Assembly (NCBI GenBank): GCA_024401475.1
Contig: JAKSKZ010000004.1
Coordinates: 1-64,000 of the forward strand
Direction: 5' to 3'
Source: Paludibacteraceae bacterium
GTDB taxonomy: Bacteria; Bacteroidota; Bacteroidia; Bacteroidales; Paludibacteraceae
Length of the DNA: 64,000 nucleotides
Under the pieces are notes generated by a model that searched no databases, had not been told where the DNA came from, and was given only the letters and a program-made list of their open reading frames with translations. This document shows positions 24,881 through 29,774 of this stretch, piece by piece (position 1 is the stretch's first letter; each line of letters opens with the position of its first letter). The position numbers were made by a program, and so were the translations under genes.

Positions 24881-25471
24881 TCAACCATTGTACTTTTTGA
24901 AATTTTCAGCTTGTTCCAAGACCTCCTTGTAAACTTCGTCATTCGTCACAGGTGGATAACCATGTTCCGCATTGTGGATGGTTGTCTCCTCCTTCACGGC
25001 GCTTTTGAATTCAAGCACCACCAATGGCAGTCCGTTCACAAAGACGATTCCGTCGGGAATGCGTCTTTCGGTCCCCTGAATCTCCAACTGATTGACGATT
25101 CGGAAAATATTGTTTTCAGGATGTTCGAAATCAATGGGTTGGATGAATAATGACGGTAGAGACGGTGTGCACACCGTCTCCAAAGCAACGTCACGTTTTA
25201 TGGAAAATCCTTCGGTTATCAGGCGGAAGGTGTTCACATTGTTGTCATACACCGAATTGCCTGAATTGGCGGAGAGGTGTGCAATTGCCTGCTCCACCTC
25301 CAGAGAGGTGATGTCGGCATAGCGTTTTTTCAGGAACATACGGATGTCGTCACGCAACAGCACGTCGGAGGCCTCCCGATGGAGTTCCTCGCCATTGGTG
25401 TAGATGTAGCCCTCCTGCTGGAAGAGCTCCATGATCGCCAGTTCTAAGGTATGTTCGTTGAAGATGGACAT
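24881..25471 (-). pseudogene. hsdR: N-terminal fragment of type I restriction subunit HsdR with in-frame palindrome
   Basis: 196 residues matching the start of HsdR: a helical N-terminus, then the nuclease core IPDGIVFVNGLPLVVLEFKSA. The frame stops after EQAENFKKYNG, whereas intact HsdR is about 900-1100 residues with a DEAD helicase, so this is a 5' remnant. Residues LETVCTPSLPS are encoded by a palindrome (25156-25180) inserted without breaking the frame. The intact ATG context and the retained open frame show that the palindrome was tolerated before, or independently of, the truncation. Confidence 0.85.
25156..25180. repeat. GTAG palindrome, copy 1 (inside hsdR remnant)
   Basis: Starts GTAGAGACGGTGTG and continues as its reverse complement to GTCTC. 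The outer TAC of the right end has become CAA. The inner 22 bp (25159-25180) are a perfect palindrome. Confidence 0.9.
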
Positions 25472-25525: not shown

Positions 25526-25553
25526 GTAGAGACGTGGTGCGCCGCGTCTCTAC
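25526..25553. repeat. GTAG palindrome, copy 2 (supplies the RAYT stop codon)
   Basis: 28 bp, GTAGAGACG at each end in inverted orientation, with a variant centre (TGGTGCGCCG). The TAG stop of the RAYT gene (25550-25552 on the minus strand) is part of the GTAG at its right end. Confidence 0.9.
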
Positions 25554-26194
25554 AATTTATTAAATTCGTCCAAATGCCATTGGACAACATTGTTTTCGAT
25601 GTACGTGGCAATACGATTCAATTCATCCTGATCACGGACAATGCGATCATGGAAACGTGTTTGCCAGGCAAATGGAATGTTGTTGGTGTTGGCGTAATGG
25701 GTGATGGACCGTTTCAGACCTCCTACAACGACCGATAATCGGCCTTTGCATTTAGATATGATTTGCATTTGTACGTTTACGAAATCCAATTTCCATCGTT
25801 CACCCGTAGAGACGGTGTGCACACCGTCTCTACAACGCACCGCACCATCATTTTCACCATTTGCCGTGTCATTCCCATCAATTACCACAACCGCATGAAT
25901 ATGGTTGGGCATTACCACAAACAATGGTATTTCGGCGTACGGATAATGCGATTGTACGTTTACAAATTGTTTGTGGGCGTATTGACCAATTGGGGATAAT
26001 TGCATCTGTGATTCAGGTATTACCATTCCCGTAGAGACGGTGTGCACACCGTCTCTACAATCGGTTGTTATTTCCCCGAAATAATGTTCACGATTTTTGG
26101 TGCAAATGGTTACAAAATAGACGCCTCCATTGTAATTGTGCCAATTGGCACGCGCCGACGGTATGCGGTATTGGTTTTGATATTTTTCAGACAT
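25550..26194 (-). CDS. REP-associated tyrosine transposase (RAYT) carrying its own REP-like palindromes
   Basis: 214-residue Y1/HUH-type single-strand transposase. The divalent-metal HUH motif is MPNHIHAVV (about 115-123), and the preceding strand YFVTICTKNREHYFG is diagnostic. The catalytic Tyr is expected in the C-terminal helix, for example in RIATYIENN. Such enzymes bind hairpins preceded by a GTAG tetranucleotide and are thought to spread REP elements. Here two 28-bp GTAG palindromes (25806-25833 and 26031-26058) lie in the coding frame and are read as CRDGVHTVSTG each time; a third provides the stop codon and a fourth lies 60 bp upstream. One insert lies before and one after the HUH motif, so activity of the protein is uncertain. 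Confidence 0.88.
   Translation of the reverse strand: MSEKYQNQYRIPSARANWHNYNGGVYFVTICTKNREHYFGEITTDCRDGVHTVSTGMVIPESQMQLSPIGQYAHKQFVNVQSHYPYAEIPLFVVMPNHIHAVVVIDGNDTANGENDGAVRCRDGVHTVSTGERWKLDFVNVQMQIISKCKGRLSVVVGGLKRSITHYANTNNIPFAWQTRFHDRIVRDQDELNRIATYIENNVVQWHLDEFNKL
25806..25833. repeat. GTAG palindrome, copy 3 (in frame inside RAYT)
   Basis: Perfect 28-bp palindrome with half-site GTAGAGACGGTGTG. Identical to 26031-26058 and 28031-28058. Confidence 0.95.
26031..26058. repeat. GTAG palindrome, copy 4 (in frame inside RAYT)
   Basis: Perfect 28-bp palindrome with half-site GTAGAGACGGTGTG, encoding CRDGVHTVST in the RAYT frame. Confidence 0.95.
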
Positions 26195-26253
26195 AACAGA
26201 TATTTTTTTATTGTTAATTATTCATTTTTCGGTCGTTGTCGGTGGTTCCCCCC

Positions 26254-26281
26254 GTAGAGACGTGGCGCGCCGCGTCTCTAC
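26254..26281. repeat. GTAG palindrome, copy 5 (upstream of RAYT)
   Basis: 28 bp with GTAGAGACG at both ends and a centre TGGCGCGCCG, close to copy 2. Copies 2 and 5 therefore flank the RAYT gene as a matched variant pair. Confidence 0.9.
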
Positions 26282-26328: not shown

Positions 26329-27156
26329 TCACCTTATCTTCTGAGCCTTATCTAATCTTCGATGACAATATGATATAATCCCCAAAATTTCTAATGCATC
26401 CTGTTCTTCTATTTCCCAGTCAATTTTTGGTTCATGAGCAGTTGGATTCCTAAACATAGAACATAATCCTTTCAGTAAATTACAAAAACCATTGTGTTCG
26501 TTTTTCTCAGATGCAGTTTGATAATTATTGATAATTAAAATTGGATTAGAACTAAATACTTGTTCTATTAATTTATTCCCATCCTCTTGAACCAATGACA
26601 GATCTCGAATACGTTGAAATAGACCTTTATTAGCCTCCAACACAGAATGAAAATAATTATTTTGCAATAATTCTTCTTTGCAGTAATTAAATATCTGAAC
26701 ATGAGCTTTCCTGGCCTGAAGTTCTTGCTTAAGATTGTCCGTTTTAATTTTGACATCCGCAATAGTGGAAGCTCTTTCTATTTCTCTATATTGACCATTA
26801 TCTTTCAATTCATAACCAACAAATGCTAATTGTTGATTAATTAACATTCTTAGTCTTTCGTACTCTTGTTGATTGTTTACATACAAAGATGGATCCAGCA
26901 CTATAGAAATAAAATTCAATATGCCATTTGAACATTTCTGAGTATTCTGACATTCTACAAGAGCATTATACAACCTTATTCTTTTTGTGTTATTAGAATC
27001 AACATCTTCGATATTAGCCCTCTGTAGATATTTATGTATTTCGCTTCCCGTCAGCCCACTGTTTGTATCTCCAAGAACATTGCAAATAGATTCCAATACA
27101 TTTGCTGATATACATTTTCTTAAAATGGTCATACGCTTCTGTTTTTTACATTCCAA
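26329..27156 (-). CDS. TIGR02391-family protein associated with type I RM loci
   Basis: 275 residues. The C-terminal half matches the TIGR02391 (Ymh-like) signature: HNGFCNLLKGLCSMFRNPTA, HEPKIDW, then EEQDALEILGIISYCHRRLD. The N-terminal half is helical. The family has no proven activity but is recurrent in restriction and phage-defence neighbourhoods, and may act like small HEPN-type proteins; the RNP-like FRNPTAH stretch fits that idea without proving it. It overlaps the 3' end of hsdS by 11 bp, so it was part of the RM operon and remains intact while hsdM, hsdS and hsdR have decayed. Confidence 0.8.
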   Translation of the reverse strand: MECKKQKRMTILRKCISANVLESICNVLGDTNSGLTGSEIHKYLQRANIEDVDSNNTKRIRLYNALVECQNTQKCSNGILNFISIVLDPSLYVNNQQEYERLRMLINQQLAFVGYELKDNGQYREIERASTIADVKIKTDNLKQELQARKAHVQIFNYCKEELLQNNYFHSVLEANKGLFQRIRDLSLVQEDGNKLIEQVFSSNPILIINNYQTASEKNEHNGFCNLLKGLCSMFRNPTAHEPKIDWEIEEQDALEILGIISYCHRRLDKAQKIR

Positions 27157-28367
27157 TCTCTACCATTAGCAAAGATAGCATTTCTATTAAAATTTCGTTT
27201 TCTTGTGATTTTAAAGAAATAGAATCACAAAGAATTTTTGTTTTATCATTAAAAGATTTTATTGTATCAAGAGTAGGAATCAAAATCTTTTGCATTTCGA
27301 CTTCTCCTTTTGTTAGCGCTTCTCTAGTAGATCCGGATTCGCTTGCGGTTAGCAATTCTCTTTTTGTATTTTCATTATTGATTTGAAAAAGCAAGAAATA
27401 CTGACAATAAGCTTCTTTTGCTCTAATAATCATGACATGCTGATTAACTCTTGCTGGCAAAATATCGGATGGTACCATGCAACAACGTCCAACAGAAGCT
27501 CCTATAATATTCAACAATATATCCTCATCTTGTACAGTAATAGAACCTAATGCTTTTGCTTGACTCTCAGTAATATGAGCTAATTTCTCTCTTTCAAAAT
27601 AGTAGTCAAAAACATTCATGCTTCTAATCAAACTGATTCCTTCTCTCAAGTACGAATCTTTCCCCCCTTTGGGAGTAGAACCACTTCCTATCTTTGAGCA
27701 CACATCTCCCAGCGTCCCCATTCTCCATCCCTCCGGCAAATTCTCCACATCAATTCCATCCACAAACATCTTTCTATACAATGCTTGGGCGGCTTCCTCT
27801 AATTTGGTAATGGTTTGCTTGTTGTTGGCAATGCGGTTTTCTATCGCTTGATAGCGGTTTACTATGCGGCGCTACTCCTCAAGGGAAGGGAACGGGAAGC
27901 ATGACATTACACATTTCTTCCCAATCAAAAACCTCACGAGCGCTGCCATGCGAATGATAACGTGCATAACGATCAAATTCCGCACGACGGAACCACATCA
28001 TCAGATATTCGGGCAATAATTGGTCGCATTGTAGAGACGGTGTGCACACCGTCTCTACGGTATTGCACGTACCTACAATTTCAAACACAACGTATGCCTG
28101 CGAAATAATAGCAGGTTCATTGCCTGTATATAATGCAACGGTTATTTTCTCGCCATTTCTTGATGTCACGGGAACATAGGCAAACTGATTATGCTTTACA
28201 ATCTTGTAAGGTCGTAAATCTGTTCCAACCATATTGGCTATGGAAGGAATAAATTTTTTCGCAATGCTCAATCCCAAAAGATTAGAGCATTGCAAATCTT
28301 TATTCCTTACATCCACTTCACGGATATAATCCCCCAGACGCTTATATGTAGAGTTGTTGTTAGTCAT
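27146..28367 (-). pseudogene. hsdS: type I specificity subunit HsdS, split by frameshift and nonsense codon
   Basis: Two target-recognition domains remain: residues from 28367 (NSTYKRLGDYIREVDVRNKD...) and from about 27740 (LPEGWRMGTLGDVCSKIGSGS). The first half ends prematurely at MLPVPFP (27879). Reading one frame over continues as PSLEE-stop-RRIVNRYQAIENRI..., where EEQRRIV is expected. There is thus one extra base near 27885 plus a CAG to TAG change. The downstream half is open from about 27860 to 27146. A GTAG palindrome (28031-28058) lies in frame in the first domain, read as VETVCTPSLQ. HsdS cannot be made as one chain. Confidence 0.88.
28031..28058. repeat. GTAG palindrome, copy 6 (in frame inside hsdS)
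   Basis: Perfect 28-bp copy, half-site GTAGAGACGGTGTG, translated VETVCTPSL in this gene. This is a different reading frame from that used in RAYT. Confidence 0.95.
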
Positions 28368-28382
28368 TAATAAATCTTTATA

Positions 28383-28415
28383 ATTCTTTCCAATTTACAA
28401 AGAATTGGAAAGAAT
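28383..28415. promoter_or_regulatory. inverted repeat upstream of hsdS
   Basis: ATTCTTTCCAATT (28383-28395) with its perfect inverse (28403-28415), 7-nt centre. It overlaps the last codons of fic (NTILSNSL-stop) and lies 16 bp upstream of the hsdS ATG. A near copy lies at the start of fic. Operator-like. Confidence 0.6.
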
Positions 28416-29774
28416 CGTATTGAAATCCTCACTTCTTGTATATCCTTTCTTCACATCGTTTAATGCGATTTCCTTAAGATATCCCTTTTCAATTAGTCCG
28501 ACTATATCTGTCTTTGCAGTTGTTGCAGTAACTCCGAAATGAATTTGAAAATCTTTCACGAAATATGTCTTATTTGGATTTTTCACATACAACCTCAATA
28601 TCTCTGCTTGTCTTTGGTTTATACCGCCAATCCGCAAGAATTTGTCTGCATCATTTCTTTCTGAACTCTTTCTTTGAAGATATGACTGAAGCTCTACAAA
28701 CGACTCCTTCAAAACTTTCAAATGATACAATATGAAATATCCTATGTCGTTTCCATCTGCTTCCGCATACAAATATGCCTTTTCATAATCATTTTTCCTT
28801 TTGTATATGATCCTAGAAATTGACATGTATTCCATTAGCCAATATCCTTCCTTTAGCATATACCAGTAGAATATTGCTCTTGCAGTTCTTCCATTTCCAT
28901 CCACAAAAGGATGCATATAAGCAATCATAAAATGAAGAATAATACCCTTTATGATTGGATGTACAAACAACTCACCATCTTTAGCATTGAAATAATCGCA
29001 GAAAATTTTTACAAATGATTGAATTTCCGTATGCGACGGTGGTGTATGTACCACTTCGTTTTTAGTGTCATCTACTACCACTACATCATCATTGCCTCTG
29101 AATTGCCCGCAATCCTTAGGATTGTCAAGCGTGTTTTCGGTCATAAGCGAATGAATATGAAGCAAAGCCTCTTCTGTCAAGGACTGATCTTTATGATCTG
29201 AGATATAACGAATTGTGTTATAATTATTCAAGATCATTTGTTGTGCTTTGTCCCTTGGCTTCAATCCCTTCCTTAACATTTCTTTCGCTACTTTTCTGGT
29301 AGTGGAAGCTCCTTCCATTTGGCTTGAAGCAATCGCTTCTTCCATCAAAGTACTTACCAGATATTTGTGTTTGTCTTCAGATTGCAAAAGCGAATCATTC
29401 CCTAAAACGCCACCGAAATTCAAGTCAAACTCATGACATAGACTCTGCATTTTGTTTGTCAGTCCAAAATGAATATTATAGTGCTCCCATTCCGATATCT
29501 CTTTAATTTGTAGCAATCTATCAAGTTTCACTCTCATCCATAATTCTTCAGGAGTACATCCATCTGGACTCTTTTTATATTTTACCTTGTTCCAGTACAA
29601 ATATTCTTCATTGATAGACCGCACAAATGACCACAATTCTTTATTCTCACTAAGAGTCAAGAACTGTTCTGTCATTTCTACATTAGAAAAATGTGGCGCA
29701 ATTTCAATCATATCGTAAGTTTTGTAATTCTTTCCAATTTTTACAAAATTAGAAAGAATTGGAATGTTTTCCAA
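28395..29774 (-). CDS. Fic-domain protein (probable AMPylase), class II
   Basis: 459 residues. The Fic core HPFVDGNGRTAR (about residue 290) is complete, with the invariant His. An inhibitory helix motif SSQMEGAS (about 155-162) lies N-terminal to it, as in class II Fic proteins, where the Glu blocks ATP. A C-terminal winged-helix (KTYFVKDFQIHFGVTATTAK, then LIEKGYLKEI) suggests DNA binding and autoregulation. Fic enzymes transfer AMP to target proteins. The start may be 29774 or the ATG at 29711; the first 20 codons coincide with an inverted repeat (29726-29760), so a true start at 29711 with an operator upstream is attractive. It stands between RM remnants and looks intact. Confidence 0.88.
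   Translation of the reverse strand: MENIPILSNFVKIGKNYKTYDMIEIAPHFSNVEMTEQFLTLSENKELWSFVRSINEEYLYWNKVKYKKSPDGCTPEELWMRVKLDRLLQIKEISEWEHYNIHFGLTNKMQSLCHEFDLNFGGVLGNDSLLQSEDKHKYLVSTLMEEAIASSQMEGASTTRKVAKEMLRKGLKPRDKAQQMILNNYNTIRYISDHKDQSLTEEALLHIHSLMTENTLDNPKDCGQFRGNDDVVVVDDTKNEVVHTPPSHTEIQSFVKIFCDYFNAKDGELFVHPIIKGIILHFMIAYMHPFVDGNGRTARAIFYWYMLKEGYWLMEYMSISRIIYKRKNDYEKAYLYAEADGNDIGYFILYHLKVLKESFVELQSYLQRKSSERNDADKFLRIGGINQRQAEILRLYVKNPNKTYFVKDFQIHFGVTATTAKTDIVGLIEKGYLKEIALNDVKKGYTRSEDFNTILSNSL
29726..29760. promoter_or_regulatory. inverted repeat at the 5' end of fic
   Basis: AATTCTTTCCAATTTT (29726-29741) with its inverse (29745-29760), one mismatch, 3-nt centre. It shares ATTCTTTCCAATT with the repeat at 28383-28415, so fic and hsdS each have the same operator-like element near their start. 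Confidence 0.6.

Follow-up and report, generated by a model that had tools for sequence, protein, structure and literature searches.

We report that a RAYT gene from a Paludibacteraceae bacterium carries two perfect double-foot palindromes in frame within its own coding sequence, and we propose that this group 4 enzyme probably inserted its own REPs locally, an in-gene copy then being retained as its cognate site. The gene lies in the 64,000-nucleotide stretch of DNA that we analyzed (contig JAKSKZ010000004.1, hereafter the window), among genes of a type I restriction-modification locus (Table 1). Related RAYT genes carry comparable palindromes, which are denser inside the gene than beside it, occupy either of two stop-free frames, covary between their arms, share cores with other palindromes of the same locus and, in six genomes, are the only copy detected.

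Table 1. Features of the RAYT locus, in window coordinates
Feature	Position	Strand	Description
RAYT gene (TnpA_REP, assigned to group 4 / subclass 2.4)	25550..26194	minus	214 aa, ATG start, HUH residues 97-100, Y198
In-gene double-foot REP, copy 1	26031..26058		perfect 28-bp palindrome; encodes residues 46-55, CRDGVHTVST
In-gene double-foot REP, copy 2	25806..25833		perfect 28-bp palindrome; encodes residues 121-130, CRDGVHTVST
Flanking REP with the TAG stop codon of the RAYT (25552-25550)	25526..25553		GTAGAGACGTGGTGCGCCGCGTCTCTAC, slightly imperfect
Flanking REP, starting 60 bp upstream of the RAYT ATG	26254..26281		GTAGAGACGTGGCGCGCCGCGTCTCTAC, 13/14 pairs
hsdR remnant, directly downstream of the RAYT	24881..25471	minus	N-terminus fused to extreme C-terminus
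REP copy in frame in hsdR	25156..25183		LETVCTPSLP; ALETVCTPSLPS, one foot decayed
hsdS N-terminal ORF with in-frame REP	27879..28367	minus	
REP copy in frame in the hsdS ORF	28031..28058		VETVCTPSLQ; perfect palindrome

A RAYT gene with two in-frame palindromes

Sequence motifs and a predicted structure support the assignment of the gene to RAYT group 4, or TnpA_REP subclass 2.4. In an alignment of 27 relatives, its HUH motif corresponds to N97-H98-I99-H100 and its invariant tyrosine to Y198, with H98, H100, W177 and Y198 invariant throughout. The protein also has the WQ motif (W177-Q178) and a Y-motif, Y198-IENNV, that ends in V where the subclass consensus YIxNNP has P. Matches to NCBIfam NF047646 (REP_Tyr_transpos; E=1.5e-14, 54.1 bits for a cut-off of 80) and to Pfam Y1_Tnp (18.8 bits for a cut-off of 23) stay under the curated cut-offs, probably as a result of the inserts interrupting the domain match, and are thus insufficient as the sole basis for identity. 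The best structural match that Foldseek returned for the AlphaFold model is 4er8, a TnpA_REP bound to a REP hairpin, and a profile search with the protein also returns 4er8. The NF047646 match and this nearest solved fold bear out the RAYT identity given in the original prediction, as the alignment does the HUH motif. The closest named relative is found in Bacteroidales bacterium UBA1715 (locus L044), and the window gene is the one full-length copy in its own genome, the other matches being partial or diverged.

The two in-gene palindromes share the sequence GTAGAGACGGTGTGCACACCGTCTCTAC, with 14-bp arms that are 100% complementary. The first (insert 1, residues 46-55) is an additional segment compared with most of the 27 aligned relatives, and so has the character of an insertion that had been supposed for both. 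The second (insert 2, residues 121-130) occupies a variable loop between the HUH motif and the catalytic helix that is present in every aligned relative, and in which most relatives carry a palindrome of their own. In both the alignment and the AlphaFold model, a variable insertion separates the HUH strand from the catalytic helix. The model reaches a pLDDT of at least 90 in 110 of 214 residues, and its segments below 50 include residues 50-53 and 111-138, so both inserts are predicted to lie in or beside disordered loops.

The gene is bordered on both sides by GTAG REPs of the double-foot type, which have one core type, the in-gene pair having another; the upstream one matches the in-gene palindromes of the relatives L015 and L016. 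The arrangement described in the original prediction, with two perfect 28-bp palindromes read as the same ten residues, a third supplying the TAG stop and a fourth 60 bp upstream, is found at the positions in Table 1. Its view that RAYT gene and REP are superimposed holds for the in-frame copies and is not particular to the RAYT: two further in-frame copies, which it had missed, lie in the neighboring hsdR and hsdS ORFs. The 9-mer GTAGAGACG occurs 11 times in the window versus 0.25 expected and a maximum of 2 in dinucleotide shuffles; a literature search for the bare motif GTAGAGACG showed nothing relevant among the papers listed.

Association of the palindromes with RAYT genes

When the source genome (3,602,665 bases, 88 contigs) was searched for the palindrome at up to 2 mismatches, nine copies were found: six within 3 kb at the RAYT locus, one in a RAYT remnant on contig 33 and two elsewhere. 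Seven of the nine thus lie at RAYT sequences or their direct neighbors, and two do not adjoin any RAYT sequence. Nine copies in 3.6 Mb rule out a general high-copy REP family of this genome.

For a broader view, we collected 104 full-length RAYT genes from genomes of the family and from named genomes with a profile of the alignment, and called double-foot palindromes by a single rule at all loci; none was called in Markov-shuffled control loci. In-gene palindromes are present in 54 of the 104 relatives. At these loci, which were chosen by similarity to the window protein, palindrome density is 0.954/kb in the RAYT gene versus 0.685/kb in the flanks at 0-250 bp, and falls to 0.241/kb at 250-500 bp, 0.031 at 500-1000 bp and 0.008 beyond 1 kb. 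A hairpin with an arm of at least 10 sits in the HUH-W loop of 68 of the 104 genes. Such a strong hairpin is absent from the other 36, and it is therefore not essential for every RAYT of group 4. In the loops of L090, L109, L077 and L075, symmetry runs past the GTAG/CTAC feet to give arms of 20-24 bp, a pattern suggestive of hairpin growth through templated copying.

Across 199 sampled genomes of the family, scored for a RAYT match and for the GTAGAGACG palindrome, the palindrome is present in 52 of 58 genomes with a strong RAYT match versus 21 of 102 without a match, as raw counts that ignore kinship; among the latter positives, some assemblies are incomplete and some RAYTs may be lost or overly diverged. 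At 18 loci with palindromes both inside and outside the gene, the cores match at 10.6 of 12 bases versus 7.2 after shuffling (maximum 9.3). Because presence tracks the RAYT across genomes and same-locus cores match better than in every shuffle, these comparisons support the view that the palindromes behave as the REP family of the window RAYT. That they are instead unrelated to it, being regulator binding sites or another repeat family present by chance, would fit the two genomic copies away from RAYT sequence and the 21 palindrome-positive genomes lacking a match, and is nonetheless very improbable given the locus-specific cores, the tracking across genomes, the drop in density from 0.69/kb beside the RAYT to 0.008/kb beyond 1 kb and the fact that GTAG-footed hairpins are the known RAYT substrate (PMC8266576).

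Conservation of the hairpin and not of the peptide

The in-gene 28-mers of the relatives use two reading frames almost evenly: 29 and 26 lie in the two stop-free frames and 0 in the frame where GTAG gives a stop. Identical 28-mers are read in different frames in L015 and L016, whose proteins are 65% identical, and in L080 and L083 (62%). Among 38 distinct in-gene 28-mers, 515 of 532 opposing arm positions pair, versus a mean of 391 and a maximum of 429 when right arms are re-dealt. Changes on both sides occur at 9 of 14 pairs among 24 representatives, with 58 such cells versus 14.4 after shuffling; the re-deal test is the fairer of the two, because those 24 were hand-picked as perfect or nearly perfect palindromes. 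In L115 and L119 the palindrome is identical as far as aligned, amid a loop that cannot be aligned. Tree-based counts (15 frame changes versus a shuffled mean of 22, and 20 presence changes versus 30) serve as support only, because many branches are weak.

Judged from these sequences, the conserved thing is the DNA or RNA hairpin and not the peptide. Because identical 28-mers switch frame, we rejected selection on the encoded peptide. A peptide-level function, in which ten residues such as CRDGVHTVST were needed and the palindrome were a by-product of the codons, would sit well with the stretch being translated and in frame in every case; it is scarcely credible when the identical 28-mer yields an unrelated peptide in the other frame (L080/L083 and L015/L016), when both arms covary at the DNA level and when the region is of low confidence in the AlphaFold model.

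REP copies in a type I restriction-modification locus

In the window, as in L044, the RAYT is part of a type I restriction-modification locus, where it is flanked by hsdS and hsdR. By comparison with L044:10993-14196, the hsdR remnant retains ~166 N-terminal residues and the last ~28 of a ~1067-aa HsdR, joined by an in-frame internal deletion. The restriction system looks broken, with hsdR reduced to a remnant and hsdS split; its restriction subunit has presumably lost function, in contrast to the intact RAYT. The hsdS palindrome occupies one common loop in three genomes (the window, L044 and L132) and is absent from the other genomes compared; in hsdR, a single loop holds the palindrome in the window, L044 and L161, with differing frames. 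In most relatives, hsdS and hsdR have no palindrome at those loops.

Genes of the hsd type are found near the RAYT in 11 of the 104 loci, on the same strand in all, and hsdR is directly downstream in nine. RAYT loci inside type I restriction-modification operons are L010, L015, L016, L017, L018, L028, L029, L033, L044, L053 and L118; in L017 the RAYT stands between hsdM and hsdS, and one locus of this kind belongs to a Methylococcales symbiont. Our literature search found no report of a RAYT link to type I restriction operons. Accessory ORFs of the window locus (26329-27156 and 28395-29774) encode a Hypoth_ymh (PF09509) protein and a Fic-like protein, the latter recognized by eye from its HPFVDGNGR motif.

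A probable recent exchange and possible breakpoints

A 212-bp tract of the window RAYT (25893..26104, minus strand), which holds in-gene copy 1, is 100% identical to L044, with identities of 76% and 79% in the gene parts before and after it. An identical tract inside genes otherwise this diverged points to the two lineages having exchanged sequence recently, by gene conversion or transfer, which would have carried copy 1 along.

RAYT fragments that start or end at palindromes were seen at L044:10008-10133, L044:14208-14477 and L029:385-1200, and L029 has three tandem 5' RAYT fragments ahead of its intact gene. Overall, 22 of 58 truncation ends of RAYT fragments fall at a palindrome versus a base rate of 2.5%, which suggests that palindromes act as breakpoints of RAYT genes; the comparison is suggestive only, because alignments also stop in the variable loop beside the palindrome.

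Proposed local insertion and retention of the in-gene copy

We infer that the RAYT cuts and moves these palindromes. As an HUH single-strand DNA nuclease, it would recognize the GTAG-footed hairpin in single-stranded DNA and would move or copy the palindrome over short distances, recurrently. With movement of such short range, copies would pile up at the RAYT gene and its immediate neighbors, here hsdS and hsdR. Copies landing in genes would survive only if they fall in a surface or disordered loop and are read in either stop-free frame, as has probably happened twice in the window RAYT, at two permissive and probably disordered loops. The copy in the loop between HUH motif and catalytic helix would be kept over the long term as a DNA or RNA palindrome, whatever its peptide, because it would be the cognate site traveling with the enzyme gene.

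The bases around the palindromes differ between the two sides: frame-1 copies are mostly preceded by TT and followed by GG, and frame-0 copies show roughly the reverse complement, suggesting that the inserted unit is oriented. If that unit were TT plus the 28 bp, it would measure 30 bp, or ten codons, and would thereby preserve the frame. TnpA_REP enzymes of other groups bind GTAG-hairpin ssDNA and cut at CT, sometimes CA, dinucleotides (PMC8266576).

In the 56 more distant relatives, the subset in which query bias should be least, the ratio of in-gene density to that of the 0-500 bp flanks is 4.8 (95% bootstrap 2.5-12.0). Another double-foot palindrome within 1 kb is lacking in 29 of the 49 in-gene bearers with flanking sequence. 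In six genomes (L083, from Algoriphagus; L080; L114, from Massilibacteroides; L111 and L108, from Flavobacterium; and L073), the in-gene palindrome is the sole genomic copy at up to 3 mismatches to the searched pattern, positions having been assigned to the gene arithmetically. Since many surveyed genomes are MAGs, copy numbers are minimum values. No GC-rich hairpin was found within 700 bp of the RAYT in either direction in L083, L080, L073, L109 and L077.

These distributions bear on a neutral account, in which REPs hop locally into harmless loops, hairpin-templated (quasipalindrome) correction maintains their symmetry and the in-gene copy is functionless. Intragenic REPs have been viewed in this way in published work (PMC3733652, PMC6006769), and the account would explain why hsdR and hsdS also carry in-frame copies at loops that are palindrome-free in most relatives, why both RAYT inserts are predicted in or beside disordered loops and why the symmetry of several in-gene palindromes continues past the REP feet, an expected outcome of templated extension. 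It is harder to reconcile with a density that is 4.8-fold higher in the gene than in the flanks of distant relatives, though flanks accept insertions more freely, with palindromes persisting as sole genomic copies with no donor left, and with the identical palindrome of L115 and L119 amid an unalignable loop. We consider it possible, if doubtful.

Another account is autoregulation, in which the in-gene hairpin and the stop-codon REP act in cis on RAYT expression and make the enzyme self-limiting. This might work through the protein binding or, as the original prediction supposed, nicking its single-stranded gene, or through ribosomes being delayed or halted by the mRNA hairpin. Folded as RNA, the in-gene hairpin is a strong one (-20 kcal/mol, z about -6). 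It has been kept in the gene in distant relatives, also where no other copy was found in the genome, and the RAYT stop codon of the window lies in a REP; E. coli REPs no more than 15 nt from a stop are reported to stall ribosomes (cited in PMC12306157). Many relatives, however, have no stop-codon REP or no in-gene hairpin, and the literature consulted does not establish that TnpA_REP binds RNA. We regard autoregulation as rather unlikely.

Local insertion followed by retention of a cognate site is itself in tension with several observations. The symmetry could be kept up by hairpin-templated mutation instead of selection; the core of the in-gene pair differs from that of the flanking pair in this genome, so that either pair could be the cognate one; and both the 36 genes without a strong loop hairpin and the 21 palindrome-positive genomes without a RAYT match count against it. 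We regard it as possible, though less likely than not, that the RAYT gene is self-recognizing: instead of stray REP debris, its in-gene palindrome would be the main cognate site and under selection, in some genomes the sole REP, with compensatory arm changes in either frame and an action in cis through expression, cleavage or mobility.

Comparison with known systems

The wider interest lies in what RAYTs do for the cell and in why these single-copy genes persist. If the in-gene cognate hairpin is a selected cis site, RAYT function would become directly testable, since synonymous recoding separates hairpin from protein; RAYTs whose only detectable REP is in-gene would be the simplest such systems.

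IS200/IS605 transposases such as IS608 and ISDra2 share the HUH-Y1 fold with the window RAYT, as well as the hairpin recognition predicted for it, and differ in that the latter gives no evidence of a mobile unit with left and right ends and has one full-length genomic copy. Rickettsia palindromic elements also lie in frame in unrelated proteins, and we know of no RAYT association for them. They occupy many unrelated genes genome-wide, whereas the window genome has nine copies, seven of them at RAYT sequences or direct neighbors. Some Rickettsia families are described as CGTC-tagged or longer (PMC3733652).

GTAG REPs inside ORFs or supplying TAG stops, as in the window, are described by Di Nocera et al. 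(2013; PMC3733652). The survey in that paper covers Proteobacteria, Cyanobacteria, Chloroflexi and the PVC group, not Bacteroidetes, and its description of these REPs does not present the RAYT gene itself as a host (PMC3733652).

The closest precedent is TnpA_REP subclass 2.4, equivalent to RAYT group 4 of Bertels and found in Cyanobacteria and Bacteroidetes, for which frame-preserving insertions of double-foot REPs into the enzyme gene are described (Quentin et al. 2018, PMC6006769). A RAYT gene hosting its own REPs is thus an already published trait, and the window gene fits the subclass as described there: both have the HUH motif NH[IFV]H, the WQ motif, a Y-motif that varies in its last position, a variable insertion between HUH strand and catalytic helix, double-foot REPs (GTAG...CTAC) and an in-frame REP in the enzyme gene. 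The window differs from that description in its two in-gene copies, its YIENNV ending (V for P), the difference between inner and flanking cores and the in-frame copies in adjoining hsdR and hsdS. Frame switching, arm covariation and sole-copy genomes were not found in the main-text description of the subclass (PMC6006769). To that published trait we add the enrichment of palindromes in the gene over its flanks, the covariation of their arms, the use of both frames and the genomes in which the in-gene palindrome is the sole copy.
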